Shown piece by piece: positions 1,861-21,300 of a stretch of 64,000 nucleotides of DNA. The translations under genes were made by a program, and so were the position numbers. The notes below the pieces were generated by a model, which saw only the letters and a list, made by a program, of their open reading frames with translations, was not told the DNA's origin and searched no databases. Every line of letters starts with the position of its first letter. The first letter of the stretch is position 1. Source of the stretch: Armatimonadota bacterium (GTDB lineage: Bacteria; Armatimonadota; Zipacnadia; Zipacnadales; JABUFB01); the NCBI GenBank assembly GCA_013314775.1, contig JABUFB010000005.1:62001-126000 (forward strand). The letters run 5' to 3'.

Positions 1861-3141
1861 ATGGCTGACAAAACGACTGCTCGTCCGCCTTGGTTCGACC
1901 AGCCCAGGCTGGGCATGTTCGTTCACTGGGGCATCTACGCGATCCCCGCCTGGCACGAGCAACTTCAGTGGCGGGGGCGCATGTCTCGCGCGGAGTATGT
2001 GAAATTCGCCGACCAATGGAACCCGGTGCGCTTCGACCCCGATGCCTGGCTTGACCTGGCGCAGGAAGCCGGGATGCAATACCTCTGCATCACCACGAAG
2101 CACCACGACGGCTTCTGTCTATGGAACACCAAGCAGACGCCCTTCAACACCATGAATACCCCGTACGGGAAGGATATCCTGGGAATGCTGGCCGAGGCCT
2201 GTCATCGCCGGGACTTCCCGCTCTTCCTGTACTATTCGTGCGCCGACTGGCATCATCCGAACTATCCGAACCAGGGACGGCATCACGAACTGCCGGGACC
2301 GGAGCCCGGAGACGACCCCGACCTGGGCAAGTACTTGGAGTTCCTGAAAGCTCAGGTGCGTGAACTGTGCAGCAATTATGGGCGCATTCACGGGTTCTGG
2401 TGGGACATGAATGTGCCGCAGCACCGGGACCCGTCGATCAATGCGATGATCCGCGAGCTCCAGCCAGGCATCGTCATCAACGACCGCGGGTATGACGAGG
2501 GGGATTTTGGCACGCCCGAGCGAGACTATCAGCAGGGGATCGACGCGCTCAAAGGCTTTGAGCGGCCCACCGAGGCATGCCAGTCAGTGGGCATCGAGAG
2601 CTGGGGATTTCGGCAGGACGAGGATTACTACACCGACCGGCACCTCATGCGCAGCATCGACCGGTATATGGCCAGAGGGGCTCACTACCTGCTCAACGTG
2701 GGGCCAACGGCGGAGGGAGTGATCCCTGCGCAGGCAGTGCAGGTTCTGCGCCGGGTGGGAGCGTGGTTCAGGCGCATCCGCGAGTCCGTGGAGGGCGTCG
2801 AACCGATGCCGGATCTTGTTGCGAGCAATGATGTACTGCTGACTCGGCGCGGCAATACGGTCTACGTGCATCTGCATCGCGACCCTCCGACTGCAGCGGT
2901 GAAGCTCAATCCGCTGGCGGTCGTGCCTCGGCGGGCGAAGCTCTTGAATACCGGCGCACCGGTAGACTGTGTCGTTGACCTGCTTCCCAGCGAGCATGCG
3001 TCCGGCAAGCCTTGCCTGCGCCTGCGGAACCTTCCGGTGAATACGCTGGCGAACACGTGCCTGGTGGTGCGGCTGGACTTCGACGCATTGCCGGAAGGCG
3101 CCGCTCCGGACGAGGACACGCCGGAGGTTCTCAGAATGTAG
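1861..3141 (+). CDS. GH29 alpha-L-fucosidase
   Basis: A 426-residue protein of glycoside hydrolase family 29, which releases alpha-linked L-fucose with retention of configuration. Family hallmarks are visible: 'LGMFVHWGIYAIPAWHEQ' near the N terminus, 'KHHDGFCLWNTKQTPFN', 'LFLYYSCADWHHP', and the segment 'HGFWWDMNV' whose Asp182 is the likely nucleophile. No signal peptide is seen, so it probably acts in the cytoplasm on imported oligosaccharides. The start at 1861 is preferred over an in-frame codon at 1843 because GGGAGG (1845-1850) lies 10 nt before it. It ends before a strong hairpin shared with the convergent Rid gene. The 'WWDM' context is slightly unlike the commoner 'WfDg', so a related specificity is possible. 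Confidence 0.88.
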   Translation: MADKTTARPPWFDQPRLGMFVHWGIYAIPAWHEQLQWRGRMSRAEYVKFADQWNPVRFDPDAWLDLAQEAGMQYLCITTKHHDGFCLWNTKQTPFNTMNTPYGKDILGMLAEACHRRDFPLFLYYSCADWHHPNYPNQGRHHELPGPEPGDDPDLGKYLEFLKAQVRELCSNYGRIHGFWWDMNVPQHRDPSINAMIRELQPGIVINDRGYDEGDFGTPERDYQQGIDALKGFERPTEACQSVGIESWGFRQDEDYYTDRHLMRSIDRYMARGAHYLLNVGPTAEGVIPAQAVQVLRRVGAWFRRIRESVEGVEPMPDLVASNDVLLTRRGNTVYVHLHRDPPTAAVKLNPLAVVPRRAKLLNTGAPVDCVVDLLPSEHASGKPCLRLRNLPVNTLANTCLVVRLDFDALPEGAAPDEDTPEVLRM

Positions 3142-3248: not shown

Positions 3249-4316
3249 TCAATCACATCGCGCGGCGTCCACCTCAAGCTCGAACAGAAGGTCGTCCCGG
3301 CAGATGATGTTATTCGCCACGATTGCCGGAAGCGCCGCGAGGTCCGGGCGCGAGGCCACGAACCGTTGATATGCGCCAACGTCGGAAGTGAGCCGGACAT
3401 AGGCTGTGGCGCGGGTGACGTGGCTCCAGTCCATCCCTCGCGATTCCAGGATGGCCTGGACAACCTCGAAAGTCTTCGCGACCTGACCGTCGACGTCGCC
3501 CACATACACCGTATTCCCATTCCGATCAATACTTGCGGTACCCGACACGAGCAGGCGCTTGCAGCCAGGCGTCGCCACCTCCACCACGCGGCTGAAAGAG
3601 CTTCCGTAAGCCAGCGCAGGGCACTGCAAAGGCGAGGGCACCGCTTGGATGCAGACCTGATCCGATTTGGGCTTCATCGCGAAAGCCGATGCAATCATGG
3701 CAGACCCGGCGGGGTTCGCGCCCCCGATGCCGGTGCTTGCGGGCACCAGCTTGCTGAAGACGTCCCGCTCATTGAAGAACCGGGTGCGGACCCCGTTGAA
3801 CTCCCCGTACCACTCGAGTATCTGGTCCAGGAAGAGCCAGGTGCGGACCACGTTGGAGAAGTCCATGTCCACCTGGGCGAGAGCTTTCTCTATGTTCTCG
3901 AAGGTCTCGCGTGCCTGTTCCGGGCGGGATTTGTGGGTGTGGATTGACCGGATGCCTGCGAGGGTGCATTCGGTGGCGTAGGGTGTCTCCACGACCGTGC
4001 CTACGACTCGCCCGTCAACAAGGAGCGGACGGGTCTCCGCACCCTGTACGGCATGGACGTAGACACCGCTCAGATCTGCGCCGTCCGGATGCTCATTGCA
4101 GACCCAGGTTACGGGAAAGTCCGGCTCCTCCCAGCCCGGTGTTGGGGGGCCGAACACGTCAGCGCGCACGATCCGTGCGCCCCCAGCCTTGTCCACCAGA
4201 TCGCTGATGTCCGTGCAGTCCGGACCGGACAGGGTCAGGAATAGTTCGTCAAACTCCTGCCTGTTCCGGGTGACGGTGTACAGCTGCTGCGAGGGTGCGG
4301 CGGCATGTTCGGCCAT
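3249..4316 (-). CDS. RidA/YjgF-family protein, two-domain
   Basis: A 355-residue protein whose C-terminal ~130 residues resemble the Rid (YjgF/YER057c/UK114) fold: 'LLVSGTASID', 'QVAKTFEVVQAILES', 'VTRATAYVRLTSD' and 'PAIVANNIICRDDLLFELEVDA'. The N-terminal ~200 residues are a related half with 'VVRTWLFLDQ'. Classical Rid proteins hydrolyse reactive enamines and imines; longer two-domain relatives include chorismatase-like enzymes, so the activity here is uncertain. The start at 4316 is chosen because CCGGAGG lies 8 nt upstream. The longer open frame overlaps the end of the upstream heme-protein gene. It follows heme protein A by 73 nt on the same strand and is probably co-transcribed with it. 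Confidence 0.75.
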   Translation of the reverse strand: MAEHAAAPSQQLYTVTRNRQEFDELFLTLSGPDCTDISDLVDKAGGARIVRADVFGPPTPGWEEPDFPVTWVCNEHPDGADLSGVYVHAVQGAETRPLLVDGRVVGTVVETPYATECTLAGIRSIHTHKSRPEQARETFENIEKALAQVDMDFSNVVRTWLFLDQILEWYGEFNGVRTRFFNERDVFSKLVPASTGIGGANPAGSAMIASAFAMKPKSDQVCIQAVPSPLQCPALAYGSSFSRVVEVATPGCKRLLVSGTASIDRNGNTVYVGDVDGQVAKTFEVVQAILESRGMDWSHVTRATAYVRLTSDVGAYQRFVASRPDLAALPAIVANNIICRDDLLFELEVDAARCD

Positions 4317-4389
4317 GAACGGACCTCCGGGTGAGCATCCGCTTGATGCTCTCTTGAGCTTTTCATTCCCCGAGACGTTCCCCCCGCTG

Positions 4390-7300
4390 TTAGTGTTCAC
4401 CTTCGTCGGGTACTCTCTCACCGCTGCGCAAGGCGGCCCGGTTGCGCATCTCGATCTCCAGGCGCTTTGCGTATTTCGCCTCGCGACGCAGATCCAGGTC
4501 GCAGGCGACGAAACCATCCATGTCCGCCCGTGGCCGCATGGCGAGCATCCGCTTGCCGGCCTCGATGATAGCCAGTGCTTCCCGGTATGCTTGCGGGTTC
4601 TTCTCGCGGATTGCAGAAAGGCACGGGCTCAGTTCGGGCCTGTCGAAGCTCACTTGCGGCCCGGAGTTAGCGTTGCAGGCTGCTTGCGCCGCGAGGGGCA
4701 CACCTGTCAGTTCCTCCAGGCGCTTGAGTTGCCGGTCGTCCAGCGGAGACCGCCCGGAAAGGTTGTCCGGATATGCGCTTGCGTATGTCGGGTAGTAGGG
4801 TGCATTGATGTCGATCCAGGTCACAATGCGGTCCAGATCCTCGGGCGTGAGCTTGTCGCCGACGTGCCCGGCTCTGAGGGTAGCCACGATCTTGCTGGCG
4901 TGGGATCCCCAGGATCGGGCCTGCTGGATCTGGGCCGGCCCTGCACCGATCGCCTTGATGAACCCGCGCCGCCAGAGTTCATTGTACGAGGCGTTGAAGA
5001 ACAGGTCGCGGTCGCCGGCGAGGTTCAGCGTCTTGCCTGCGGGTTTGCCATAGTCGTGGCAGGAAACGCACAGCCGGTCGAACACGGGCTGCACCTCGGC
5101 CATGTAGCTGAACAGCCGTGGCTCGCCCCTCCATGATTCCAGCTTGCGAGGCGCCTTGTCGAGAGCTTTCAGCATGCGCGGCAGCTTCGCCGGCGGCGCC
5201 ATATGTCGGTCTTCGTGGCAGCCCACACAGCCGGCATATTCCCCCGACTGCACCATGGTCCCGCTGCGCATGGACTGCACCATCATCCCGTCGGAATCGA
5301 GAAGCTGAAAGTAGACGAATCGGTCGGAAGGGACCTCGAAGTAGGCTGAGCCGTCCTCTTCCACGGGCACGGTCCCCAGAATTCGCTTGTTGTTGAAATC
5401 GTGCCAGCCCATCGCCGGGCTCTGACTGCCCTGGCCACCCCACCATGGGTAGACCCACTGCCGCTTCTCGGGGGACTCCACCACTCGCAGGTACTTCACA
5501 TCGCCGCGCTTCACTCCGGCCATGTGGGTGCCGCGGTACACGTCCACCACATAGAAGTACCCCGGCGCGTTGTCGAAGTTCCGTCGCGTGGGTATGTCCG
5601 GTGGACGGGTTCGAGCCGCAAGGGGCATGGGGTCGAAGCAGCCGGGCTCCTCGGTATGCAGGAGCAGTTCATTGCCGAACACGTCCAGCAGACAGATGCC
5701 CATCTGCTCGCCGCTGCCGGTCATGCGGGAGCACAGGAAGTACTTGCCCGCGCCCGCGCCCGTGTTGGGGTCGGCGAGAGGGTACGGGTCCTCGTACTTC
5801 GGGAACAGGTTCACGTACGAGTCGATCCCACCGATGTCGACACTCTCAATTGCCGACGCAGGCCAGATCCGGACCACGGCACGGCGGCCGTCAATGGCCA
5901 GACTGCGGTCAACGATGGCGATTGCGCCCCAGGGGCGGTCGTGACACGATGTGAAGGTGCAGACAACCTGCTCCGTTCCCGGGATGATTCGCGGGTCTAC
6001 TACGGCACCTGGCGAAGCGGTGTTGTTCCCCCAGTACACTGCATGATTGGTGCCATCGGGGTAGACCGTCCACAGGCCCTGGGCATCACCGAAATTGCGG
6101 TCCACGTACTCCCAGCGGTTGTACAGGATGCGGCCGTCGTGGGTCAGCGAGCCGTGACCTTCCATCAGAGTGCTCTTGCCGATCTGGTGGATGTTCGTCC
6201 CGTCCGGGTGCATGCGGAACAGGTTGGCCATGATGTGCCGGTTGCACATGCAGTACTTGGGCTCGCGGGTGGATGAGAATGCGATATCTCCACTCGGCAA
6301 GTACAAGGGGTCGATGTCGCTGACTCCCGGCGCGAAAGTCAGCTGTCGGGGTTCCCCGCCTGCCGCCGCTATCTCGTAGATGTGCGCGTCATCCCTGGCG
6401 TCCCGGCGCAGGGATACCAGGATGCGCGCGCCTTCGAAGTGCACGTCGGGGTCCCGCACGACGCCCTGCGGCAGGTCCAGGAGCGTGCGCACAGCCGCGC
6501 CGGCACCGAAGTCGATGGTCTTCAGCGCGCTGCCGCCGCGGAAGCTCCCGGTGTTGATCTCGCCGGTCTGGAACATGGTGGCGGTGTTGTGGTGGTCCGG
6601 CGCGTACTGTCTGCGCACAACGTAGAGGATTGGTTGCCCGCTGACCAGCGGATTGGCGATGAGAGCCTCGCGCTGCAGTTCGCGGAAGTCCTTGAGCGCT
6701 GCGCGGCGTGTTGAAGGGTCTTCGGAGGCGAGCGGTCCGTCAAGCGCTTCGAGACGAGCCAGGAACTCGTGTCCGCGCGGGTAACGCTCCCCGAATGTCG
6801 TGATAAGGTCTGCGATTGCGGCGCGCAGTGTTGCCGGGGTGCCCGGATCGGGCATTCCCGCAAGACGCAGGGCTTCCAGGATTACCTTATTCTGCGCGAA
6901 GTTCCGCTCTGTGGCGGCCGCGTCGATGGCGGCTTCCGCCTGGAAGTCATCGATGGTTATGTGTCCCCAGCCGCCCGTGTTGCCGTCCACGATGCGCAGG
7001 AAGAGGCGCTTGCCCACCAGCCCGGGGGCCGTCCACCGCACGGTCTGCATGGTCTCGGTGTTCTTACCCCGTGCCTGCATCTGCTCCTCACCATCATCGG
7101 CGGTGCAGAGGGCAACGTATGTGTCCTTGTGGGCCCCGCCGCCCACGAGAAGAGTCATCTCCGGTGCCTGAAGCAGGAACACAGGGGACTCGATGACGCC
7201 GGTGAAGCGGTCACTGGGTCGGTTGTCGCTTTGCTCGAGGGTGGACAGGAAATACTTCCCCTGCTTGTTGTATGGCTGCCCGGTATTGTGGAAGACCGCG

Positions 7301-7449
7301 CGGTCGCAGACGAGCTTGTCGAAGCCGCCTTCGATCACCCGCCAGCCCTGGAGATCGCCGGTCTCGAAATCGAACCGCAACTGCTCAGCCTGGACGCCGG
7401 ACCATAGACCGAGTAATCCCACGATGACCGAAGTCAATACGAGACGCAT
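4390..7449 (-). CDS. HzsA-related di-heme protein, paralogue A
   Basis: A 1019-residue exported protein (signal sequence MRLVLTSVIVGLLGLWSGVQA). After a galactose-binding-like N-terminal domain (~20-170) comes a PD40/TolB-like propeller ('EPRQLTFAPGVSDIDPLYLPS', 'MHPDGTNIHQIG', 'DGRILYNRWEYVDR'). The C-terminal third matches the pattern I know from HzsA-related proteins: 'GTVPVEEDGSAYFEVPSD', heme motif CVGCH (741-745), heme motif CVSCH (794-798), and the closing 'DLDRIVTWIDINAPYY'. A CX4CH (CTFTSCH) in the propeller replaces the AHH of the paralogues. The start at 7449 follows a GAGGG; the longer frame upstream lacks support. In hydrazine synthase this subunit carries two c-type hemes; activity here is unknown. 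It is divergent from B and upstream of the Rid gene. Confidence 0.82.
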   Translation of the reverse strand: MRLVLTSVIVGLLGLWSGVQAEQLRFDFETGDLQGWRVIEGGFDKLVCDRAVFHNTGQPYNKQGKYFLSTLEQSDNRPSDRFTGVIESPVFLLQAPEMTLLVGGGAHKDTYVALCTADDGEEQMQARGKNTETMQTVRWTAPGLVGKRLFLRIVDGNTGGWGHITIDDFQAEAAIDAAATERNFAQNKVILEALRLAGMPDPGTPATLRAAIADLITTFGERYPRGHEFLARLEALDGPLASEDPSTRRAALKDFRELQREALIANPLVSGQPILYVVRRQYAPDHHNTATMFQTGEINTGSFRGGSALKTIDFGAGAAVRTLLDLPQGVVRDPDVHFEGARILVSLRRDARDDAHIYEIAAAGGEPRQLTFAPGVSDIDPLYLPSGDIAFSSTREPKYCMCNRHIMANLFRMHPDGTNIHQIGKSTLMEGHGSLTHDGRILYNRWEYVDRNFGDAQGLWTVYPDGTNHAVYWGNNTASPGAVVDPRIIPGTEQVVCTFTSCHDRPWGAIAIVDRSLAIDGRRAVVRIWPASAIESVDIGGIDSYVNLFPKYEDPYPLADPNTGAGAGKYFLCSRMTGSGEQMGICLLDVFGNELLLHTEEPGCFDPMPLAARTRPPDIPTRRNFDNAPGYFYVVDVYRGTHMAGVKRGDVKYLRVVESPEKRQWVYPWWGGQGSQSPAMGWHDFNNKRILGTVPVEEDGSAYFEVPSDRFVYFQLLDSDGMMVQSMRSGTMVQSGEYAGCVGCHEDRHMAPPAKLPRMLKALDKAPRKLESWRGEPRLFSYMAEVQPVFDRLCVSCHDYGKPAGKTLNLAGDRDLFFNASYNELWRRGFIKAIGAGPAQIQQARSWGSHASKIVATLRAGHVGDKLTPEDLDRIVTWIDINAPYYPTYASAYPDNLSGRSPLDDRQLKRLEELTGVPLAAQAACNANSGPQVSFDRPELSPCLSAIREKNPQAYREALAIIEAGKRMLAMRPRADMDGFVACDLDLRREAKYAKRLEIEMRNRAALRSGERVPDEGEH

Positions 7450-7601: not shown

Positions 7602-10397
7602 ATGCCGAAGCCGGTGAGAAGATGCGCATTGCTCGCGACACTCACGTGTCTGTGCCTGACCTGCGCTGCCGAACGCATTCCGCTGACGCCCGAGCAGCTT
7701 GAGGCGGACTGGCTGCTGCAGGAGCGCGACCTGCGACCCATCAGTACGAAGGATGACGCCCTGAGCGCCCTGGACGGTGTGAAAGACGGCGGCTGGGCCT
7801 TCCATACTGGCCTGGACAACCCACCCTGGTGGCAGGTGGACCTCGGCGAGGCTGTTGCGCTCGACCATGCGCTGGTTTTCAACCGTTGCGATGCAGCCGC
7901 CTCGCGCATGGACAGGATCATCGTCCTTCTCAGCGACGACGGCAAGGACTGGCGGCAGGTATACCAGCATAACGGGCCGACTTTCTACGGCGCACGCGGC
8001 GGTCCGCCTCTCAGGGTTGACCTGACCGGCCAGACCGCGCGGTACCTGCGGCTCACCGTGCCGGGACAATCCTTCCTGCACCTCGATGAGGTCGAAGTTT
8101 ACCCCGCAGCCGACCCCGAGCGCAATATCGCCCTGTGGAAGGAGGCGGACCAAAGCAGCATCAGCCAGTGGTCCTCGCGGGCCGTACGCCCCGGAGAGGA
8201 CGCACCGGTTTACCTGCTGGAGCGTGTCCTCGAACGCGGACAGAGACTGGCTGCCGACCTCGCGAGCGCCGGCTTGGACACGTCTCGTGCGGCTGAACTG
8301 CTGCGTGAAATCGCCGCAAAGGCGCCCAACGCCACAGGCGAAACCCGCGGGGACCTCTGGCGGCTCGCGCGGCACACCGTGCGCGAGATGGCTTTCCGCA
8401 ATCCGCTGCTCAATTTCGAGAGCATTCTCTTCGCGAAGCAGGTTCCCGGCAGTTTCAGTCACATGTCTGACCAGTACTACGGCTGGTGGTCGCGCCCCGG
8501 CGGCGGCCTGTTCATCCTGAGCGGCTGGAAGACGGACCAGCCAGTCGAGCGTTGCCTGACTTCGAGCTTCCCCGAAGGCAGCTTCATGCGCCCTGAACTG
8601 TCCTGGGACGGCAAACGCATCCTGTTCGCCTATTGCCGTTACTACCCGCATGTCGCAGGGTTGCCGGACAAGCAGAATAAGGAGAACGTCCCCGAAGACG
8701 CCTTTTACCACGTGTACGAGATGAACGTGGACGGCACCGGGATACGACAGCTAACGCGCGGCCGGTACGATGACTTCGACGCCCGCTACCTGCCATCGGG
8801 CGACATCGTGTTCCTGTCCACCCGACGCGGGCAAAAAACACAGACCAGCGCCGCAAGCGCCATGGCGACTCTGAATGCGACGCTGCCGGACTCCTACGTG
8901 CGTTGCGGGGGCGACGCGTACCGACCGGTGGCTGTCTACACCCTGCATCTCATGGACCGCGATGGCGGCAATATACGGCCCCTGTCACCTTTCGAGAACT
9001 TCGAATGGACCCCATCAATCGCCTCCGACGGACGCATCCTGTATGCGCGTTGGGACTACATCGACCGCAATAACATGCCCTACATGGGCCTGTGGTCGAT
9101 GAACCCCGACGGGACCAACCCGCGCATGGTCTATGGCAACTTCACCCACAGTCCCCATTGTGTGTTCGAAGCGCGGTCGATTCCGGGCTCACACAAGCTG
9201 ATTTTCACCGCGTCGGCGCACCACGCGATCACAGGGGGCAGCCTGGTGCTGCTTGACCCAATGCAGGGCTTTGACGGTCCCGAACCGCTTACGCGTCTGA
9301 CGCCGGAAGTGTGTTTCCCGGAGATCGAGGGCTGGCCCGAGACCTACTACACCAATCCGTTTCCTCTGTCGGAGACCTACTACCTGACCGCCTGGAGCAC
9401 GCAATGCGTGGCGCGCCAGGGCACCAGCGGGCCCAATAACTCTGTGGGCCTGTACCTGTTCGACGCCTTTGGCAACCTGGAACTGATCAATCGCGACAGC
9501 GAGATCTCCTGCATGTACCCGATTCCATTGCGGCCCCGGGAGATGCCGCAGGCCATCGCCGGGCCGGTGGACTGGAACGGTGGCGAGGGGCGTTTCGTGG
9601 TGCTGGATGTGCATGAAGGTCTCAGCGATGTCCCGCGGGGAACGGTGAAAGCCCTGCGGGTGGTGGCGGTTCCGCCGAAAACACAGCCGAACATGAACAC
9701 CCCCAATCTGGGGGTCACGGCAGACGATCCGGGGAAGTGCGTATTGGGCACGGTGCCCGTGGAGACCGATGGCTCGGCGTTCCTGCGGGTGCCATCCGGG
9801 GTCTCGGTGTTTTTTCAAGCCCTGGATGAGCACGGCCAGGCAATCCAGACCATGCGCAGCGTGACCTGCGTGCAGCCCGGCCAGACGTTGTCCTGCGTGG
9901 GTTGCCACGAACCCCGTAACTCGGCGCCGGGCGTGCGCAGAACCGCGGCGCTCGGTCGCGAACCGTCCAGACTCAGGCCCGGGCCCGAAGGCTCGTGGCC
10001 CCTTCGTTACGAGGACCTGGTGCAGCCTGTGCTGGACCGCAGGTGCATCCGCTGCCACAACCCGCAGAGCAAGAGCGAGGCTGCGGCGGCATTCGACCTC
10101 TGTGGCGCGGGCTCGTACCAGCGCATGTTGCGATGGGGCAAGCCCAGCCTGGCCGAGCACGTTGCGCAGCGGTACCGCGAGGGCAGCTCCAAAGTGAACG
10201 CAGGAGCCGCGCAGACCAGCCCAATACTGGCGATGCTGCGAGAAGGTCATCATGGGGTACAGCTGGAACAGGACGAGTGGGATCGTCTTATCACGTGGAT
10301 GGACACATACGGCCAGCGGCTGGGGTCCTTCAGCCCGGAGCAGGAACAGGAGTTGCGAGACCTGCGCGTCGCTCTTGCCGACCTGCTGGCCGAATAG
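7602..10397 (+). CDS. HzsA-related di-heme protein, paralogue B
   Basis: A 931-residue exported protein with signal sequence in the first ~23 residues, then a discoidin (F5/8C-like) domain ('FHTGLDNPPWWQVDLGE' about 68-83, ending 'FLHLDEVEVYPA'). A PD40 propeller follows ('LSWDGKRILFAYCRYY', 'YLPSGDIVFLSTRRG', 'MNPDGTNPRMVYGN', with the conserved 'ASAHHAITGGS'). Then comes an HzsA-like region 'LGTVPVETDGSAFLRVPSG' with heme motifs CVGCH (765-769) and CIRCH (815-819), and the end motif 'EWDRLITWMD'. The ATG at 7602 touches a GAGGGG; a GTG at 7614 would have better spacing and still give a signal peptide, so the start is uncertain by four codons. The next gene, the propeller/peroxidase fusion, starts 39 nt after its stop, suggesting an operon. 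Confidence 0.82.
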   Translation: MPKPVRRCALLATLTCLCLTCAAERIPLTPEQLEADWLLQERDLRPISTKDDALSALDGVKDGGWAFHTGLDNPPWWQVDLGEAVALDHALVFNRCDAAASRMDRIIVLLSDDGKDWRQVYQHNGPTFYGARGGPPLRVDLTGQTARYLRLTVPGQSFLHLDEVEVYPAADPERNIALWKEADQSSISQWSSRAVRPGEDAPVYLLERVLERGQRLAADLASAGLDTSRAAELLREIAAKAPNATGETRGDLWRLARHTVREMAFRNPLLNFESILFAKQVPGSFSHMSDQYYGWWSRPGGGLFILSGWKTDQPVERCLTSSFPEGSFMRPELSWDGKRILFAYCRYYPHVAGLPDKQNKENVPEDAFYHVYEMNVDGTGIRQLTRGRYDDFDARYLPSGDIVFLSTRRGQKTQTSAASAMATLNATLPDSYVRCGGDAYRPVAVYTLHLMDRDGGNIRPLSPFENFEWTPSIASDGRILYARWDYIDRNNMPYMGLWSMNPDGTNPRMVYGNFTHSPHCVFEARSIPGSHKLIFTASAHHAITGGSLVLLDPMQGFDGPEPLTRLTPEVCFPEIEGWPETYYTNPFPLSETYYLTAWSTQCVARQGTSGPNNSVGLYLFDAFGNLELINRDSEISCMYPIPLRPREMPQAIAGPVDWNGGEGRFVVLDVHEGLSDVPRGTVKALRVVAVPPKTQPNMNTPNLGVTADDPGKCVLGTVPVETDGSAFLRVPSGVSVFFQALDEHGQAIQTMRSVTCVQPGQTLSCVGCHEPRNSAPGVRRTAALGREPSRLRPGPEGSWPLRYEDLVQPVLDRRCIRCHNPQSKSEAAAAFDLCGAGSYQRMLRWGKPSLAEHVAQRYREGSSKVNAGAAQTSPILAMLREGHHGVQLEQDEWDRLITWMDTYGQRLGSFSPEQEQELRDLRVALADLLAE

Positions 10398-10436
10398 CTC
10401 AGACCTTCGCGTTCACAGCGAATCGGGAGAAAACAG

Positions 10437-12308
10437 ATGCTCCACGCCATGCGTCGTGCCGGTATTCCGTCGGGTGCGCGCGCTCGCTACTTCGCCCTGG
10501 GGTTGGTGGCGGTCATGCTGGTCGCTGGCGTCGCGCTCATCGGGCGGCCTGCAAGCACACAGGCAGGGCCCACTTACCATTCCCCCTTGTACATGGCCCT
10601 TTCGCCTGATCAGCAGACGCTCTACGTGACCGACCATACTGCCGATGGCCTGTGTGTCCTGTCCGCTAAGGATGGGTCGCTGGTCCGCACGGTGTCGATC
10701 CCGGCGCCGACAGGCGTCGCGGTCTCTCCCGATGGCGCAACGATTTATGTGGCGAGTTCGTTGCAGGACCGCGTCTATGAAGTCGATGCCGCGGATGGCC
10801 GCATCCGTGGATCCCTCGGCGTGGGCCGATACCCGGTCGGCCTTGCGGTATCCCCGGATGGCGCCACGTTGTACTGCTGCAATCAGTTCACCGATGATGT
10901 CTCCGTGATCGACACAGCCAATATGGCCGAAACGCGGCGTCTCAAAGCGATCCGCGAGCCCCGTTTCGTGGCGATCGCCGCCGCTGGTGACCGGCTGGTG
11001 GTTACGAACCAGCTTCCTCTGGGCTCCAACCTCGATGACTCCCTGGCGGCCGAGGCCACGGTAATCGACTTGCCCGGCGGTGATACCACGGCCGTCAAGC
11101 TCTCTCTGGGTGCGACCGATGTTGGGCAGGTCTGCTGTTCGCCCGACGGACGCTTCGCTTATATTCCCCACGTCCTGGCGCGCTGGCTCGTGCCACCGAC
11201 ACAGCTTGATCGGGGCTGGATCGCTACGAATGCACTGACGATCATCGACCTGCAGGAGAAGAAGCGGGTCAATACCGTGCTTCTGGATGATCTCGACCGC
11301 GGGGCTGCCAACCCGCAGGGCATCACGATCTCTCCGGACGGCGCGCGGCTGTACGTCACCCACGCAGGCACCCATGAGATACAGGTCATCGACCGGGCAA
11401 AGCTTCACAAACTGGTTGACGAGTGGCCGGCCGACGCGCTCACGGAGCTTGAGAATGACCTGACCGCCGTCTACCGGGCCGGTGTGCGCATCCGCGTGCC
11501 TTGTGGAGGCGTTGGCCCTCGCTCGGCTGCCGCCACGTCGGACGCGGTTTTCGCTGCGAATTACTACAGCGGCGATATTACCCGGCTGCCCGCTGATGGC
11601 AAGGGCAAGCCGACGATGATTGCGCTGGGAAACCAGCCGGAGATGGACTCCGTACGGCGCGGCGAAATGCTGTTCAACGACGCCCGCATATGCTTCCAGG
11701 GATGGCAATCCTGCGCAACCTGCCACCCCGAGGGACGCGCGGACGGGCTGGCGTGGGACCTGCTCAATGATGGGATCGGTAATCCGAAGAACGCCAAGTC
11801 GCTGCTTCTTTCGGGCCCGACGCCTCCGGTCATGGCCCACGGCGTTCGGGGTAGCATGGAGATCGCGGTCGGGACCGGGCTCAAGTACATTCTCTTCCAC
11901 GTCCCAACCAATAACGAGATCCCGGACATCGCCGCGTACATCGATTCCATGAAACCCGAACGGAGCCCGCACCGGAATCCCGACGGCACGCTGTCGGAGG
12001 CGGCCCAGCGCGGCAAGGCCATCTTTGAACGTGAGGACGTTCAGTGCGCCAAGTGCCACCCGGCGCCGCTGTATACCGACCTGCAGACATACGATGTGGG
12101 TACCCGCGGGCCATACGACCGCCGCGACGATTTCGACACTCCCACCCTCGTCGAGATGTTCCGCAGTGCGCCGTATCTGCATGACGGCAGCGCGGTGACC
12201 ATGATGGACGTCCTGACAACGTACAACAAGAACGACAAGCACGGCGTCACCTCGCACCTGTCGCAGCAGGAACTGAACGACCTGGTGGAATACCTGCTGT
12301 CCCTGTAG
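10437..12308 (+). CDS. YVTN-propeller / di-heme CcP-like fusion (HzsB-HzsC-like layout)
   Basis: A 623-residue protein with an N-terminal membrane/signal segment (ALGLVAVMLVAGVALIG). Residues ~45-400 form a YVTN/YncE-type beta-propeller with repeating 'VAVSPDGATIYVA' and 'LAVSPDGATLYCC' blades. Residues ~405-623 form a di-heme cytochrome c peroxidase/MauG-like domain: CATCH (426-430) in 'CATCHPEGRADGLAWDLLND', 'PPVMAHGVRG', and CAKCH (537-541) followed by 'FDTPTLVEMFRSAPYLHDG'. In hydrazine synthase the beta subunit is a seven-bladed propeller and gamma a CcP-like di-heme protein, and in Scalindua these two are reported as one fused polypeptide. Similar propeller-cytochrome fusions occur outside anammox, so identity is not proven. 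It sits between HzsA-related genes B and C on the same strand. Confidence 0.82.
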   Translation: MLHAMRRAGIPSGARARYFALGLVAVMLVAGVALIGRPASTQAGPTYHSPLYMALSPDQQTLYVTDHTADGLCVLSAKDGSLVRTVSIPAPTGVAVSPDGATIYVASSLQDRVYEVDAADGRIRGSLGVGRYPVGLAVSPDGATLYCCNQFTDDVSVIDTANMAETRRLKAIREPRFVAIAAAGDRLVVTNQLPLGSNLDDSLAAEATVIDLPGGDTTAVKLSLGATDVGQVCCSPDGRFAYIPHVLARWLVPPTQLDRGWIATNALTIIDLQEKKRVNTVLLDDLDRGAANPQGITISPDGARLYVTHAGTHEIQVIDRAKLHKLVDEWPADALTELENDLTAVYRAGVRIRVPCGGVGPRSAAATSDAVFAANYYSGDITRLPADGKGKPTMIALGNQPEMDSVRRGEMLFNDARICFQGWQSCATCHPEGRADGLAWDLLNDGIGNPKNAKSLLLSGPTPPVMAHGVRGSMEIAVGTGLKYILFHVPTNNEIPDIAAYIDSMKPERSPHRNPDGTLSEAAQRGKAIFEREDVQCAKCHPAPLYTDLQTYDVGTRGPYDRRDDFDTPTLVEMFRSAPYLHDGSAVTMMDVLTTYNKNDKHGVTSHLSQQELNDLVEYLLSL

Positions 12309-12340
12309 GCCACAAGTCGGGGCGAAGTGAGTACGCAGTT

Positions 12341-12374
12341 CTCCTGCCCGGGGTGGCGACGCCCCGGGCAGGAG
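12341..12374 (+). terminator. Terminator hairpin after the propeller/peroxidase gene
   Basis: A perfect 13-bp stem (CTCCTGCCCGGGG / CCCCGGGCAGGAG) with an 8-nt loop lies 32 nt after the stop. There is no T-run, so it may also be an attenuating or RNA-processing hairpin inside a longer operon leading to gene C. Confidence 0.65.
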
Positions 12375-12420
12375 TACATTCAGCCGCGGAATCCCGTCCG
12401 CATCCGGGAGCCTTAGCGCG

Positions 12421-15400
12421 ATGAGCAACCGTCTCACGTATGTATGGATGTCGGTGCTGTTTGTGATTCTCCGCCCGGTCTTCTGCCAGGATGCGCCGGT
12501 CACGCCTGACAGCCTGTACGTTCGCAGCGATACCTGGCAGCATTCGTTGGAAGCATCCCTGCAGCGTCTCGCGGCCTTGGAGAAAGCCGAACGCACCGCA
12601 GCTTCCGGCGGGGTGGAACTTGGCCCATGGTACGCCGCGGGCTCCTTCAGCAACCTGGACGGGAAGGGTTTCGCCCATCGATATCCCCCCGAGCAGGCGG
12701 TCAAGCTCGACGCGCAGTATCCCGGCATGTATGGCTCCACCGTCAGCTGGCGGCGCATGGACATGTTCGAGGACGGGCAAGTTCACAGCCTGCTGCCTCA
12801 TTTCCAGCACACCGAATGGGCTATCTGCTACCTGTATCGCACTATCACCACGCGCACCGGAGGCACCCTCAAGGTGTCCTTCGGCAGCGACGATGGTCTC
12901 GCGGTGTGGTTCAACGGACAGAAGATCGTGTCGCAGGATGTGCCTCGCGGGCCCGGCCCAGACCAGGCAGTTGAGACCCTGGAACTTGAGCCGGGGGAGA
13001 ACCACCTTCTGCTGAAGATCGTGAACCGCACTGGCGGCTGGGGGTTCTATTTCCGCGCAGAACAGGTGGCCGGAGACTTCGAGCCGTGGCACGTCATTGG
13101 ACCCTTCGACAACACTGACGGCAAGGGGTACACCACCGCTTACCCGCCCGAGCGGGAGATCGACTATGCGCGCACGTACCCCGGGATGAAGAACACCGTG
13201 GCCGCCTGGCGACCGATGGAGCGTTTCGTAGACGGGCAGGTCCATGATCTGCGGCCCCATTTCAAGCACACCGACTGGGCCATTGCATATCTGCACCGGG
13301 TCATCAATGCGAAGCGCGATGAGGAGATCACCGGTTATTTCGGCAGCGACGACGGTCTCGCCGTCTGGCTCAACGGGGAGAAGCTCATTGCGAAGGAGAA
13401 GGTTCCGCGCGGGCCTGCACCGGACCAGGACAAGGCGGTCCTGCGTCTGAAGAAGGGGCGCAATGATCTGCTCGTGAAGATCGTCAACCAGACCGGCGGG
13501 TGGGGCTTCTACTTCCACACGAAGCCCGGTGGAGGAGATCCCGAAGAGAACCCAGTGCGTCGCCAGCGCATCGCCGCCATCTGGGATCGCCTCCGCGTTG
13601 ATTTCACCTCTCCGGAAGACGTGCGACAGATGAAGGACGAGAGCGCTGACGGCATCTGGCCCATCGGCTGGCACCCCACCGACTGGGCCTCCCTGGCCCG
13701 GCGATACCAGGACGCGACCCGGACCCGTCTGAGCGCTGCGCAGCGGCTTCTTGATGGCCTGCGGCTCGATCTCGGCGAAGATGAATGTGCGGCCGAGGCG
13801 CGGGCCATCCTGTCCGTGACCTCCGCGCCGTCGAGGACACCCGACGCGGACGCTGTTGAAGCTCTACGCGCACCGTACCACCAGGCTGCGCGCCTGCAAG
13901 ACCTGTTCGCAGGCCTCGCGAAGCTGGTGAGCATCGGCCTCGCGGTGGACGACCTGTCTGCGACTTATCCCGGCCAGTACCCGGGTGCCGAGTTCCGAGG
14001 CGCGCTCGATGACTTGCGCGCGCGCCGGACTGCACTCCTCGCGGGCAGGGGCGGCGCATACGGGCAGCTTGATGCCGTAGCGGTCTCGGCGTGGGAGGAG
14101 GAGATCACCGCACTGCAACGCAAGGCGCTGATCGAAGCCAATCCGGTACTGGATTTCGGTGAACTGCTGTTCATCACCCGCAAGCCCGGCGGCGGCAACC
14201 CCGGCCTGCCCCAGAACTGGCAGGGCAACTCCAGCATGCGCCGCAACGGCTGGGACACGGCGATCTCTATTCTTTCGTCGGCGCGCGGTGGGGGTACTGT
14301 TCGCACGATCTTTCACTCCCCCAGCGCTTTCGTGGGCGATCTGAATCTGTCCTTCGACGCCACCCGGATACTGTTTTCCATGCCTGATGAGGCCAGGAGG
14401 ATGACTTATCAGGTGTGGGAGATCGGCACGGACGGGAGCGGTCTGCGCCAGGTGAGCGTGGGCCCGGACGAAGACTATGACAACTACGACGCCTGCTACC
14501 TGCCCGATGGCCGTGTCATATTCACTTCCACTCGCTGCTACCAGGCTGTGCCCTGCACTGGCGGTGACCACGTGGCGCTACTGTATCTGATGGACGCTGA
14601 CGGCGGGAATGTGCGGCAACTCACTTTCGACCAGGACCACAGCTGGGACCCCACGGTCCTGAACGATGGTCGGATCATCTACACCCGCTGGGAATACAAC
14701 GATACGCCCCATTACTTCAGCCGGATTCTCTTTTCGATGAACCCCGACGGCACGCGCCAGAGCGCATTCTATGGGACTAACTCGTTCTTTCCGAACACCA
14801 TGATGTACCCGCGGCCTATCCCCGGCAGCGCGACGAAGATTGTGTGCATCCTCTCTGGGCACCACGGGAACCCGCGTATGGGGGAAGTCGCCATCATCGA
14901 CACCGCGCAAGGCGAGCGCGAGGCTGAGGGCGTGGTACAGATCCTGCCCGAACGCCACCGGAAGATCGAGCCGGTTATCGTGGACCAGTACGCTACCGGA
15001 AAGTGGCCCCAGTTTGTGCAGCCGTGGCCACTGTCCGACAAGTACTTCCTGGTCTCCTGCAAGCCTTCACCCGACGACTGGTGGGGGCTGTATCTGGTGG
15101 ATGTCTTCGACAACCTGGTGCCGATTCGCGTGGAACCCGGCGCGGCGCTCATGGAGCCGATCCCGCTGTGCCCGCGCAAGACGCCGCCGATCATCCCCGA
15201 TGCGGTCGATCTGAAGCGCAAGGACGCACTGGTCTATCTGTTCGACATATATCGGGGTGAAGGTCTGGACGGCGTGCCGCGCGGGAGCATCAAGAAGCTG
15301 CGGCTCATCGAACCGGTCTACAGGTACTGGGGCAATGGCGAGACCTACAGCACGTCCATCGATGGGACCTGGGACGTGAAGCGCATACTCGGGACGGTGC

Positions 15401-16083
15401 CCGTGGAAGCGGACGGATCTGCGTTCTTCCGGGTGCCTGCCAACACTCCGATCATGGTCCAGCCCATCGACGGACGGAACATGGCACAACAGCAGATGCG
15501 GAGCTGGTTCACGGCTATGCCGGGCGAAGTGCTGTCCTGCGTGGGCTGCCACGAGCGCAGGCGCGAGGTGCCGACAACCGGGGGCCGCGCACTCGCACAG
15601 GCGCGCCCACCTTCGGAAATCGAGCCCTGGCGCGGGCCGGCGCGCGGATTCTCCTTCGAAGCCGAAGTGCAACCTGTGCTGGATCGCCACTGCGTACGGT
15701 GTCATTCCAAGGGAGCCCTTGACTTGCGCCCCGCAGGAACACCGGGCGCGCGCGAGGCTCGGTTCAGCCCGGCGTATGATTCCTTGCACCCGTACGTCCG
15801 CCGGCCAGGTCTGGAGGCCACCATGCACATGCTGCCGCCGCGGGAGTTCGCGGCGAGCACCAGCCAGCTTGTGCAGTTGCTGGGTAAGGGGCATTTCGGG
15901 GTGAAGCTCACCGGGGAGGATTGGGACCGGATCATCACCTGGATTGACCTGAACGTCCCATACTCCGGTGACTGGCGCGATGCGATCCCACCTGCGCCGG
16001 AGAACCTCATCAGGCGGCGCGAGGAAATCCGCGCGCAGGACGCCTGGGCTGTAGCTCAACGGGAAGCGCAGGTGCGGCCATGA
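12421..16083 (+). CDS. HzsA-related di-heme protein, paralogue C, duplicated N-terminal module
   Basis: A 1220-residue exported protein and the longest paralogue. After the signal sequence, two tandem copies of a PA14/GLEYA-like beta-sandwich occupy about residues 66-210 and 220-367; each has 'DGKG', 'YPGM', 'DGQVH' and 'FGSDDGLAVW.NG'. A helical linker follows, then a PD40 propeller ('LLYLMDADGGNVRQLTFDQD', 'MNPDGTRQSAFYG', 'SGHHGNPRMGEVAIID'). The HzsA-like region has 'LGTVPVEADGSAFFRVPAN' with heme motifs CVGCH (1040-1044) and CVRCH (1091-1095), and closes with 'EDWDRIITWIDLNVPYSGDW'. The start has GGGAG upstream. Its stop overlaps the SUMF1-like start (ATGA), implying translational coupling. 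Periplasmic or cell-surface location is inferred; the reaction is unknown. Confidence 0.82.
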   Translation: MSNRLTYVWMSVLFVILRPVFCQDAPVTPDSLYVRSDTWQHSLEASLQRLAALEKAERTAASGGVELGPWYAAGSFSNLDGKGFAHRYPPEQAVKLDAQYPGMYGSTVSWRRMDMFEDGQVHSLLPHFQHTEWAICYLYRTITTRTGGTLKVSFGSDDGLAVWFNGQKIVSQDVPRGPGPDQAVETLELEPGENHLLLKIVNRTGGWGFYFRAEQVAGDFEPWHVIGPFDNTDGKGYTTAYPPEREIDYARTYPGMKNTVAAWRPMERFVDGQVHDLRPHFKHTDWAIAYLHRVINAKRDEEITGYFGSDDGLAVWLNGEKLIAKEKVPRGPAPDQDKAVLRLKKGRNDLLVKIVNQTGGWGFYFHTKPGGGDPEENPVRRQRIAAIWDRLRVDFTSPEDVRQMKDESADGIWPIGWHPTDWASLARRYQDATRTRLSAAQRLLDGLRLDLGEDECAAEARAILSVTSAPSRTPDADAVEALRAPYHQAARLQDLFAGLAKLVSIGLAVDDLSATYPGQYPGAEFRGALDDLRARRTALLAGRGGAYGQLDAVAVSAWEEEITALQRKALIEANPVLDFGELLFITRKPGGGNPGLPQNWQGNSSMRRNGWDTAISILSSARGGGTVRTIFHSPSAFVGDLNLSFDATRILFSMPDEARRMTYQVWEIGTDGSGLRQVSVGPDEDYDNYDACYLPDGRVIFTSTRCYQAVPCTGGDHVALLYLMDADGGNVRQLTFDQDHSWDPTVLNDGRIIYTRWEYNDTPHYFSRILFSMNPDGTRQSAFYGTNSFFPNTMMYPRPIPGSATKIVCILSGHHGNPRMGEVAIIDTAQGEREAEGVVQILPERHRKIEPVIVDQYATGKWPQFVQPWPLSDKYFLVSCKPSPDDWWGLYLVDVFDNLVPIRVEPGAALMEPIPLCPRKTPPIIPDAVDLKRKDALVYLFDIYRGEGLDGVPRGSIKKLRLIEPVYRYWGNGETYSTSIDGTWDVKRILGTVPVEADGSAFFRVPANTPIMVQPIDGRNMAQQQMRSWFTAMPGEVLSCVGCHERRREVPTTGGRALAQARPPSEIEPWRGPARGFSFEAEVQPVLDRHCVRCHSKGALDLRPAGTPGAREARFSPAYDSLHPYVRRPGLEATMHMLPPREFAASTSQLVQLLGKGHFGVKLTGEDWDRIITWIDLNVPYSGDWRDAIPPAPENLIRRREEIRAQDAWAVAQREAQVRP

Positions 16084-17042
16084 AGCGCGTTCTGACGGTC
16101 CTCGTCGTGTGCTGGATGTACACGGTGGCACTGGTCGCTGATGATGCGCCGAGGGGCTGGCCTTTCGACACTGCCGAGGCCCAGCGGCGACAGCAGGAAT
16201 GCGCTGGGGAACTTGGCGGCGAGATCACCCGCTCGCTGACGCTGCCGGGCGGAGGCACACTTGCGCTTGTCCTGGTTCCGGCCGGACAGTTCCTGATGGG
16301 CGCGCCGGAAGGCGAGTCGCTGCTGGATCCAGACGAGGTTCCGCGCTTCGTCGCCGAGGTTCCCGGCCCGTTTTGGATGAGCCGGTGCGAGATTACGAAT
16401 GCCCAGTACCGGCTGTTCAGGCCTGATCATTCCAGCGGCAACATTGACACATACTGGAAGGATCGCGTGGGGCCAGGTCCGTCACTTGACGCCGACGACC
16501 AGCCCGTTGTCCGCGTCTCCTGGCACGAAGCCAAAGCCTTCTGCCAATGGCTGGGGAAGCAACTGGGGAAGACGGTGCGCCTGCCGACCGAACCCGAGTG
16601 GGAGTGGGCCTGTCGCGCGGGAACCGACAGCCGGTTCCATTGCGACCCGGCAGAGCTTGACAAGTACGCGAACCTCGCAGATGCCAGCCTGCGCTCCGTC
16701 AAGCCGTGGGCAGTGCGTGACAACGAACGCAATGACGGAGTGGCGGTCTCAGCAAGTGTGGGCCGCTATCTGCCCAATGCCTGGGGTCTATGCGATATGC
16801 ATGGGAACGTGGCGGAGTGGTGCGAGAGTCTGTATCAACCGTACCCGCTGAACGCGACAAAGGAGTCCGATGCGACCGCTGACCCCGAAGCTCCCCGCGT
16901 CGTTCGCGGCGGGTCGTGGGATGATCGCCCGCGCCGCATACGCTCTGCATTCCGGCTGAGCTACCCGCCGTCGCAGAGGGTTTACAACGTGGGGTTCCGG
17001 GTCATTCTTGCCGATCCAGAACCTGCAACGTTGGGCCGGTAG
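16080..17042 (+). CDS. Exported SUMF1/FGE-fold protein
   Basis: A 320-residue protein with an N-terminal signal sequence (MKRVLTVLVVCWMYTVALVA) and a formylglycine-generating-enzyme-like (SUMF1) domain: 'LVPAGQFLMGAPEGE', 'MSRCEITNAQYRLF', 'VSWHEAKAFCQWLGKQLG', 'RLPTEPEWEWACRAG', 'GLCDMHGNVAEWCES', 'RVVRGGSWDDRPRRIRSAFR' and 'NVGFRVI'. True FGEs have catalytic cysteines following the RGGS segment; here that segment is RGGSWDDRPRR with none, so sulfatase activation is unlikely. SUMF1-fold proteins without that pair serve as iron oxidoreductases (EgtB-like), binding proteins or unknowns. The start overlaps the stop of heme protein C by four bases, so the two are probably made together. Confidence 0.8.
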   Translation: MKRVLTVLVVCWMYTVALVADDAPRGWPFDTAEAQRRQQECAGELGGEITRSLTLPGGGTLALVLVPAGQFLMGAPEGESLLDPDEVPRFVAEVPGPFWMSRCEITNAQYRLFRPDHSSGNIDTYWKDRVGPGPSLDADDQPVVRVSWHEAKAFCQWLGKQLGKTVRLPTEPEWEWACRAGTDSRFHCDPAELDKYANLADASLRSVKPWAVRDNERNDGVAVSASVGRYLPNAWGLCDMHGNVAEWCESLYQPYPLNATKESDATADPEAPRVVRGGSWDDRPRRIRSAFRLSYPPSQRVYNVGFRVILADPEPATLGR

Positions 17043-18319: not shown

Positions 18320-21300
18320 CTACTCCGCCGGGCCGGTTGCTCCCAGGACCTTGGCCTTCATCAGCGCGTAGTTCGCGTCCTCCCGGCTCAGCCAGGTGAG
18401 GCCGCGGCACTGCTCCCAGCCGCCCTCGCTCTCAGCGAGCGGTGACATGAGCACCCGGCTTTCCTCGGGGATCGCCACGTTCACCAGCGCCTCCAGCGGC
18501 TGCTCGCTCATCCCCTCGTGGCACTCATTACACGCGCTCCTCACATGCTCGCGCAGGGCCGCCACGCCCTCTTCGGAAGGCTTTCGGCGCTCCGGTCTGG
18601 TGAATGAGTAGTCGCCGTAATACTGGCCGTTCAGGTCCAGCCACTCCGCGATGCGGGTGAAGCTATCGGGGTCGATTGGGGCCTTGCGGTGGTGCTCGTT
18701 GAGCAGGAATCGCGCGAGTTTTCCGGCGTGCGAGCCATAGTCCATGATCTTGCTGATGTCGGTCTGCTCGTTGCGATGGGCGAGGGCGACCCAGCCCGGC
18801 CGCGTCACCAGGGCCTCGTAAGACTGACTGAACTGGCCCTTCGGAGTGCCCAGCAGGTCGAGGTTACCCGCGGTCCGCTTGAGCCCGTGACAGCGGATGC
18901 AGTAGCGATCAAGCACTGGCTGCACTGAGCGAGCGTAGCTGAACCCCCCGGCGTATCGCGGGCCGGCAGTTGGCTGGAGCTCCTTTGCCTCGGCGGGGGC
19001 GAGGCGCCGGCCACCATAGGGCAGGGAGCCCCGGGGTTCGTGGCATCCGGCACAACTGATGACCTCGCCGGGCTGCAGGTAGACCTGGCTGCGCATGCTG
19101 AACACGGCCATGTTGTTTTCATCGAGAAGCTGGAACAGCAGGGGTTCTTGGGCGGGTGCGCGGAACGCCACAGAACCGTCCTCTTCGACCGGAACGGTCC
19201 CCACTACACCCTTGACTATCTCCTGGCTCACCCAGCTGCGCTCCGGGACGGAAGCAGTGGGCTGCTCTATCATGCGCACCACACGCAGGCGCTTGATGGT
19301 GCCCGGGATCAGCGGCTCTACGCTGTCGTAGACATTCTGGATCAGGAAAACACCGTCAGCACGTCCCGGCTCCAGTGAGGACGAGAGCACCGGTGGCACC
19401 GGCCGCGGCCGGACCGGGATGGGGGAGAAGCAGGACATCCTCGGGTCCCGGTAGATCAGCTCCCGGCCGCCGAGGGTGTCCACGAGGTAGATCCCATAGG
19501 CTTCAGTCGCCTGCACATTGCCCTGAGAAACCAGCCGGTCGGGGCTGTAGGCTGCGAGATACAGGTCTTCGGAAAGCGGCCAGGGCTGGCTGTAGCTGCC
19601 GATGGGCCAGCCTTCGGTTTCGGGGAAACTGGCGTCAGGGGTGATGCGCCGGACAGCATCAAGCCCATCTTCGCCGAGGCGGCGGTCAATGGCGATGATC
19701 GATCCGGCTGTATACGAATGGTGGGCCATCGCCGTGGCCGCGACGAGATCGGTCCCAGGGATCGGCTTGGCCTCGGCGATCATGCACGGATTGCGCGTGG
19801 AATTTCCATAGTAATGGGCCACTGCGGTACCATCAGGCCGGGTGGTCCACAGACTCTGCAGTACGGTGTCGTGGCGGTTGATGTAGTCCCAGCGGGTGTA
19901 GATGATCAGGCCGCTGGGTAAGACAGCCGGATCCCACTCGTTGGCTTCGCCATAGCTGAGACGCGTGATGTTGCCCCCGTTGGCGTCACACCGGTAGAGA
20001 ACATAGGAGGGGGTGTAGCGGCCTCCGTGGCAGCGACCGAAGCCCTGGTTGCGGGTGGAGACAAAGGCGATCCCGCCATCCGGCAGGTAGCAGGGGTCGA
20101 AATCTTCAATGAGGACGGTGGTGCGGCCCATCCACCCTTGCAGCGGATCGACGCCGGGCACTCCGGTGAGTTGTCGAACCACGCCCGAGACAAGGTCAAG
20201 CTCGTACAGGAAGAATTGTCGCGCATTGCGGTCCTGGACGGTGTGATCACAGAAGCTGAACACCACACGGCGACCGTCGTATGACAGGTCCGGGTGGAGG
20301 ACGGAGCCGACCGGCAGCTTGTCCGCGAGCAGCGGCACTGCCAGGGGCTGCGAGCGCCAGGACTTCAGGAGCACAATACCATCACCCGGGCGGCTGTGAC
20401 GGCCCTCATACTGATCCACCATGTGGCTGTACAGGGGAGGCGGGCGCTTGGTGATAAGCAGGTCGCTGAAGTCCAGCAAAGGATGGGACAAGATCATCTC
20501 GCGCCGCAATTTGCGCACGTCGAGATACAGCGACTGCCAGTCAGTCCCAGGCTTCGCTTCCGCTATCCGTGCCTCGAGACCCTTCAGTCGCTCCGCAAGG
20601 TCTGGCAGGGGCCTTGCGGCAGACACGAACTCCAGCGTCTTGCGCGCGAGCTCGAGGGCGTCGGCGGTAGCGGCGCGGAACAGCGCGTTGTCAGCTCCCG
20701 CGCCCATCCTCTTCGGGGGTGTGTACGTTGACCAGGGGCTGGAGCTACTCTGGGTCGCGGGCTGGTCCAGGGCGATGTTCAAGTCGGGCTTATCGGCGGC
20801 GTAGACCTCGACTTCGTCCAGGTGCAGGTAGCTGCGACCGGGCAATTGCAGCCGCACGTAACGAGCCTTCTGGCCCTGAAGCGGCACTTCCATGGGCTTG
20901 CCATCTAGCGCGCCGTGGAAGAGCACACCCTGGTTCTGCCACACCTGCCGCCAGTTGTAGCCATCGCTGGACAGGAGCATCATCAGTACATTGTTACGCG
21001 AGCCGGCGTCCTCGCGGTTGTACAGTAGCGCGCGGTCAAGGACATATTCCTTGCCTAGGTCCACTTGCCACCAGGGCTTCTCCTCAAGCTGGGTGTGGAA
21101 TCCGGTGCCGCCGTCCTTGACGCCGTCCACAGCCCCCGGTGCGTCGTCATCAACGGACACCGATGCGCCTGGCGTGGGCTTCTTTTGCCTCGCCTGGCGA
21201 ATCCAGTCAAGTTCCAGCAGCAGGTCGTTGATCTCCAGTGGAAAGTCCCGGGCGATACGCTGGATGAGGGTGTCCGGGCCCTGGTCGACGGCGAATGCGA

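Follow-up and report, generated by a model that had tools for sequence, protein, structure and literature searches.

A gene system in an Armatimonadota bacterium, probably built like hydrazine synthase, with one fused propeller/di-heme protein and many HzsA-like proteins

We analysed a stretch of 64,000 nt from the polysaccharide-degrading Armatimonadota bacterium GCA_013314775.1 (contig JABUFB010000005.1; hereafter the window, to whose numbering positions refer), in which a gene for a fused propeller/di-heme protein (F) lies between two genes for proteins resembling the alpha subunit (HzsA) of hydrazine synthase (HZS). To our knowledge, HZS was long thought to have no relatives. The genes B, F and C follow one another on the same strand, separated by 39 bp (B-F) and 112 bp (F-C), and three further HzsA-like genes (A, D and E) lie nearby. 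The window holds five HZS_alpha genes and the genome eleven, compared with a single F:

7602-10397, plus strand: B, HzsA-like protein of 931 aa (PF18582 HZS_alpha, 2e-24; CXXCH motifs at residues 765 and 815)
10437-12308, plus strand: F, 7-bladed YVTN/YncE-type propeller joined to a CcP/MauG-type di-heme domain, 623 aa (Pfam, NCBIfam and PDB matches, model)
12421-16083, plus strand: C, HzsA-like protein of 1220 aa from another subfamily than B (PF18582, 1.2e-28; CXXCH at 1040 and 1091; subfamily tree)
4390-7449, minus strand: A, di-heme protein of HzsA type, encoded divergently from B (PF18582, 3.8e-34)
18320-21877, minus strand: D, HzsA-like protein with an F5/8 domain and a third CXXCH at 1116 (Pfam, translation)
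24385-27240, plus strand: E, HzsA-like protein with an F5/8 domain (PF18582, 9e-24)

The open reading frame of A opens at 7641, and its translation suggests ATG 7449, ahead of a signal-like N-terminus, as the likely start. A scan for promoters and terminators returned 2 promoter-like sites against 2.3 expected and 10 terminator-like sites against 5.5; all of them lay outside the B-F and F-C gaps. The nearest named sequence, 'Armatimonadetes bacterium Gw_SlDig_bin_68', is 91% identical over a fragment.

Several lines of evidence relate F to the beta and gamma subunits of HZS. Pfam recognizes a lactonase/YncE propeller followed by CCP_MauG, and the top NCBIfam model is hydrazine_BC, the beta-gamma fusion of HZS (1.4e-63), followed by the gamma and beta models singly; the score of 215 bits compares with a hydrazine_BC cut-off of 1250. 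In a sequence search of the PDB the top matches were chains B and C of the HZS structure 5c2v, with 5c2v_C second-best. Further, the AlphaFold2 model of F (predicted local distance difference test, pLDDT, 87; predicted template modelling score, pTM, 0.87) placed 5c2v_B (HZS beta) on top of the PDB structures, with Z 46.9 over 337 residues at 2.0 Å and the runner-up at Z 35.9. Propellers filled these fold-search lists, and the di-heme half of F was assigned by sequence alignment with HZS gamma only; its CXXCH motifs at residues 426 and 537 both align with the gamma motifs. The C-terminal half of F belongs with di-heme CcP, MauG and MbnH, which share its two CXXCH motifs; F differs from them by its fusion to an HZS-beta-like propeller and by a replaced catalytic tryptophan.

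The HzsA-like protein B comprises an F5/8-type galactose-binding domain, a 6-bladed-type propeller, the HZS_alpha domain and a C-terminal cytochrome c. Its AlphaFold2 model (pLDDT 84, pTM 0.82) matched 5c2v_A (HZS alpha) best among PDB structures, with Z 34.9 over 544 residues (271-913, covering all three domains) at 5.2 Å; the runner-up, TolB (Z 25.5), matched on the propeller region. Scores of the HzsA-like proteins against the NCBIfam HzsA model are 41-60 bits, where the cut-off is 800. The original prediction for this locus had described B, F and C as an HzsA-like pair around a propeller/di-heme fusion, in that order on one strand, and had likened the three folds to HZS alpha, beta and gamma. 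The coordinates above bear out the order, both CXXCH positions of F are exactly those proposed, and Pfam, NCBIfam, PDB matches and models agree on the identities, with alpha and beta recognized by structure and gamma by sequence.

In a tree of HzsA-like proteins A, B and C fall into separate subfamilies, each of which holds F-adjacent genes of other loci, so that one type of F pairs with several types of HzsA-like protein. Among 42 HzsA-like proteins surveyed, 15 carry an F5/8 domain, 4 an NPCBM domain and 16 the FGE domain PF03781. A propeller Cys and a propeller Tyr are invariant in all 42 (C712 and Y759 of C; C435 and Y486 of B), and these residues could serve as metal or heme ligands in place of Cys303 and Tyr591 of HZS.

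To examine the association across genomes, we screened relatives of F for HzsA-like genes in 80 named loci, 20 Armatimonadota regions and 32 Planctomycetota regions. Members of F's clade were picked with an F-family hidden Markov model, because bit scores of NF052342 alone fail to separate this clade from other fusions (in a six-frame search with that model the propeller part of F scores only 96.5 bits). With the window excluded, 56 of 100 F-clade loci have an HzsA-like gene on the same strand no more than 400 bp away, and 70 within 10 kb; for loci flanked by 3 kb or more on each side the counts are 40/66 and 51/66. The source phyla are Armatimonadota, Verrucomicrobiota, Planctomycetota, Acidobacteriota and Bacteroidota, with one additional record labelled Pseudomonadota, and overlaps of 3-4 bp between neighbouring frames occur. 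HZS_alpha genes were present in all 45 named genomes tested that have F relatives; these genomes were chosen by similarity to F, and the count therefore shows dependence in one direction only. Background carriage of HZS_alpha was 16 of 61 genomes in an Armatimonadota sample and 71 of 392 in Planctomycetota. Within the Armatimonadota sample, 13 of the 16 genomes with HZS_alpha held an F-clade gene (complete in 11, a fragment in 2), as against 0 of the 45 others. F itself stays scarce, with 1-6 matches per genome at E<1e-30 (some being fragments of one gene) even where there are 25-35 HzsA-like genes; the ratio of HzsA-like genes to F is 11:1 here and up to 35:2 elsewhere.

The two parts also occur as one protein. 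Single open frames fuse an HzsA-like part to an F-like propeller/di-heme part at two loci, L191 (4542-9734, minus strand, 1730 aa) and L090 (7292-11737, plus strand, 1481 aa). Both are draft-genome frames free of internal stops, with HZS_alpha first and CCP_MauG after, and such natural fusions support contact between the two parts.

We placed F among its homologues with a FastTree phylogeny of 134 sequences and took support values from an IQ-TREE analysis of 49. In the 49-sequence tree F falls in a clade with the L191 fusion (97/91), whose sister group (99/96) is small and comes mostly from HzsA-less genomes. At the loci of this sister group (L184, L185, L186, L188, L190 and L194) the F-like genes are overlapped or followed by an F-related frame of ~1000 residues with 2-3 CXXCH motifs. 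Anammox HzsBC groups with 10-heme and related homologues (84/88), and the 10-heme sequences of clade I type (L189, L193) lie outside F's clade. In an approximately unbiased (AU) test, a single clade of F and the anammox sequences was not rejected (p=0.12), so that their separation is supported, not forced. A third group (GEN), apart from F's clade, consists of the propeller/di-heme fusions found in HzsA-less genomes, and on this ground we rejected F as a generic YncE-cytochrome fusion unlinked to HzsA. The two fused anammox sequences nest within anammox, and fusion is general among non-anammox homologues; the shared fused state is thus no sign of close kinship with F.

These data qualify the phylogenetic part of the original prediction. 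Conserved adjacency in relatives extends to at least five phyla, with natural HzsA-F fusions in addition, and F belongs to a clade tied to HzsA-like genes rather than with generic YncE-cytochrome proteins. The proposed comparison with HzsB-HzsC turned out differently in that anammox HzsBC sits with other homologues, and the parallel drawn to the Scalindua beta-gamma fusion is weak. The hydrazine synthase-like character suggested for the locus thus holds for folds, adjacency and fusions, but kinship to HZS proper is not supported, given the separate clade (within the limits of the AU result) and the missing residues and partner genes described below.

The likeness to HZS proper stops short of its active sites. 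We take gamma Cys165 to form a third heme bond, His144 and Asp168 to lie at heme gamma-I, alpha Tyr591 to be a heme ligand and alpha Cys303 a zinc ligand. These roles come from PMC12758564 and PMC12607021, and the gamma reference was an anammox sequence whose numbering fits Kuenenia (CASCH 102-106, His144, Cys165). In our alignment the segment with gamma Cys165 and Asp168 is missing from all 126 non-anammox sequences, F included; PMC12758564 aligns a cysteine at Cys165 in clade I, which our alignment puts three residues off. His144 is not kept in F, which has Ala467 in this column. CcP and MauG use a tryptophan between their hemes, and the CcP/MauG tryptophan column is the same one: of the 126 non-anammox sequences, 38 have Trp there, including the 10-heme and HzsA-less sequences shown, and the F-clade members shown have Ser, Ile or Ala. 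On the alpha side, Tyr591, four residues after the CXXCH His and present in 5/5 anammox sequences, is replaced by Asn in B and by Arg in C, and the C-terminal heme of the HzsA-like proteins keeps a conserved His one column from His772. The anammox YGNC segment (Cys303), aligned by inspection, reads YGNF in B and YGTN in C; Cys303 does not define HZS, because according to PMC12758564 it is also missing in Scalinduaceae. The beta tunnel loop (245-260) has the same length in F, with altered acidic residues (Gln and Asp in F).

Compared with anammox HzsABC (PDB 5C2V), the proteins described here thus share the alpha and beta folds, a CcP-like gamma part, a tunnel loop of equal length and two CXXCH motifs in each of the alpha and gamma parts. 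They differ in the spacing of the alpha motifs (~100 residues in anammox, ~50 here), in having neither alpha Tyr591 nor the gamma residues His144, Cys165 and Asp168, and in the absence of anammox partner genes: the HAO/HDH family (PF13447) has 0 matches in this genome and 12-14 in each of three anammox genomes. A further difference is that the partners here are paralogous and carry galactose-binding or FGE domains. With catalytic residues missing, scores below the model cut-offs and no HAO/HDH, we rejected hydrazine synthase proper.

Related arrangements have been published, and the gene order that the original prediction found striking, while real, is therefore not new in kind. Non-anammox clusters of HzsA-like and fused HzsBC-like genes were sorted into clades I-IV, with the conclusion that catalytic HZS residues are missing from them (Hagglund et al., 2025; PMC12758564), and HzsABC-like genes were reported in Phycisphaerae UBA1845 with the suggestion of a wider enzyme family acting on other substrates (Suarez et al., 2023; PMC10732223). 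In the published clusters, as in ours, a gene of HzsA type neighbours a fused gene of beta-gamma type, and key HZS residues are not conserved. Our locus differs in its Armatimonadota host, in the HzsA-like genes on both sides of F, which belong to different subfamilies and to a genomic set of eleven, in its RidA/FkbO, FGE and CcsB/ResB cassette, and in the alpha-betagamma fusions of its relatives. The homologues grouping with anammox HzsBC resemble the published clades I-III, described with Trp at the His144 position where F has Ala. Judging by its Sedimentisphaerales members and its variable gene order, the clade of F is probably the published clade IV. Features that appear to go beyond these papers are the host phylum Armatimonadota, the excess of HzsA-like genes over F, the joining of alpha and betagamma parts in one polypeptide, and partners of the RidA/FkbO, FGE and sugar-isomerase-like kinds.

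A cassette of recurrent partners was defined by clustering the neighbours of F across loci. Its members, the glycan-degradation genes of the window and a cupin found elsewhere are:

3249-4316, minus strand: RidA/FkbO-Hyg5-like protein directly downstream of A (PF01042/PF21168; best PDB match FkbO 4bps)
16080-17042, plus strand: FGE/SUMF1-like protein (PF03781, 6e-53), sharing 4 bp with the 3' end of C
21887-22831, minus strand: CcsB-type cytochrome c assembly protein (TIGR03144, above cut-off)
22828-24309, minus strand: ResB-type cytochrome c assembly protein (PF05140, 5e-58)
1843-3141, 28236-29957, 31140-35543, 40352-43561 and 43591-47139: glycan-degradation genes (fucosidase, sulfatase, GH2, WbsX-like, rhamnogalacturonan lyase 11)
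L106:12889-13602, L102:4124-4825, L118:12961-13671 and others: D-lyxose-isomerase-like cupin, two genes downstream of F in Bacteroidota

The RidA/FkbO-like protein (open reading frame 3249-4517, likely start ATG at 4316) occurs in the surroundings of F in 26 loci, 22 of which have it immediately behind F; in the window it follows A. In the window the FGE domain is encoded by its own gene behind C, and in Bacteroidota and Akkermansia (L106, L098) it is joined to the C-terminus of HzsA-like proteins. At the latter locus (L098:6300-12864), from a mouse-derived Akkermansia muciniphila assembly, HzsA-FGE, F and RidA/FkbO form a compact row, and the genome has one HZS_alpha gene. CcsB/ResB-type assembly proteins and IclR-type regulators also recur near F. 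The cupin, found in the operon mostly in Bacteroidota, looks exported, matches D-lyxose isomerases in the PDB at 1e-12 and has no Pfam family. Sulfatases, one GFO/IDH/MocA protein and Dak1 kinases are among the recurring neighbours as well, and no nitrogen genes are found among those that are annotated. A literature search for links between HZS-like genes and polysaccharide use returned nothing relevant. The window also carries a group II intron reverse transcriptase/maturase gene (48675-50261, plus strand).

The overall build of the B/F/C system is probably like that of HZS, and the cassette and the galactose-binding modules point to glycan-derived substrates. Because the cluster recurs in many bacteria, gut species included, beside sugar genes, it probably encodes a heme enzyme acting on sugars. 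We propose, with a probability of about one half, an exported heme-protein system made of HZS parts, in which one F and many HzsA-like partners carry out redox chemistry on carbohydrate-derived substrates. In this organism an HzsA-like subunit (propeller, HZS_alpha heme domain and C-terminal cytochrome c) would form a physical complex with the fused betagamma-like F, and one F would serve several interchangeable partners. The di-heme F would be the electron-transfer half and the heme I site of the HzsA-like protein the substrate site, with the galactose-binding modules of many partners placing the enzyme on particular glycans or glycan products. The most likely reaction would be a periplasmic redox conversion of carbohydrate-derived substrates, not hydrazine synthesis, with the RidA/FkbO-like protein as a possible cytoplasmic follow-up enzyme. 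Signal-like N-termini suggest that the heme proteins are exported.

Five observations weigh against this proposal. At 5.2 Å overall, the domain arrangement of B is just roughly that of HZS alpha. F has no CcP/MauG inter-heme tryptophan, so that its electron transfer may not follow the CcP scheme. Thirty of the 100 F-clade loci have no HzsA-like gene inside 10 kb, many of their contigs being short. The sugar link consists of neighbourhood and binding modules, as raw counts, in genomes rich in such genes anyway. Finally, the literature found reports no tested activity for any F-clade member.

Two other roles for F are the main rivals. F could be a maturation enzyme, like MauG or MbnH, and introduce oxidative modifications into HzsA-like proteins, such as a cross-link at their heme. 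Such a function would explain why one to few F serve up to 35 HzsA-like genes, it fits the MauG/MbnH-type di-heme domain, and the invariant propeller Cys and Tyr (C712 and Y759 of C) could be its targets. However, the propeller half of F is closest to HZS beta, a structural subunit, permanent fusions fit subunits better than modifying enzymes, and members of F's clade have Ala, Ser or Ile in place of the MauG/CcP Trp; we consider this role unlikely. We regard as similarly improbable a CcP-type system that detoxifies peroxide or NO with HzsA-like proteins as electron donors: the family of F's C-terminal half and the multi-heme partners are consistent with it, but the CcP tryptophan is gone, and the number of partners, as high as 35 and many of them bearing galactose-binding modules, is left unexplained.

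Somewhat less likely again is a mere co-inheritance of F and HzsA-like genes in a glycan-utilisation island, with no physical or functional coupling. The island-like setting (glycoside hydrolases, sulfatases) and the 30 loci with no HzsA-like gene nearby favour it, yet the single-ORF fusions, the frame overlaps of a few bp and the genome-wide co-occurrence even of genes that are not adjacent speak for coupling. Hydrazine synthesis by the B/F/C system, or formation of another N-N or N-O compound from NO or hydroxylamine plus ammonia or an amine, is very unlikely: the folds, the two conserved hemes in each half and the loop length are those of HZS, but the gamma and alpha residues above are gone, the genome has no match to the HAO/HDH family, the annotated recurring neighbours include no nitrogen genes, and anammox HzsBC groups with other homologues.

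The exported sugar-directed heme system that we favour may have a wider meaning for the family. Tentatively, and with more doubt than the proposal for this locus, F and its relatives could represent a widespread, so far undescribed class of HZS-shaped exported heme enzymes, found in gut Akkermansia and Parabacteroides, in soil and in sediment, that perform a new redox reaction on sugars by combining one betagamma-like electron-transfer subunit with interchangeable glycan-binding alpha-like subunits; HZS would then be an offshoot. The family also cautions against taking hzsA or hzsBC homologues in metagenomes as anammox markers. The single-copy systems of Bacteroidota and Akkermansia could serve as entry points. 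As the whole three-part HZS architecture, alpha-betagamma fusions included, occurs in bacteria without anammox, the ancestral chemistry of hydrazine synthesis can be searched for in ordinary, partly cultivable bacteria.

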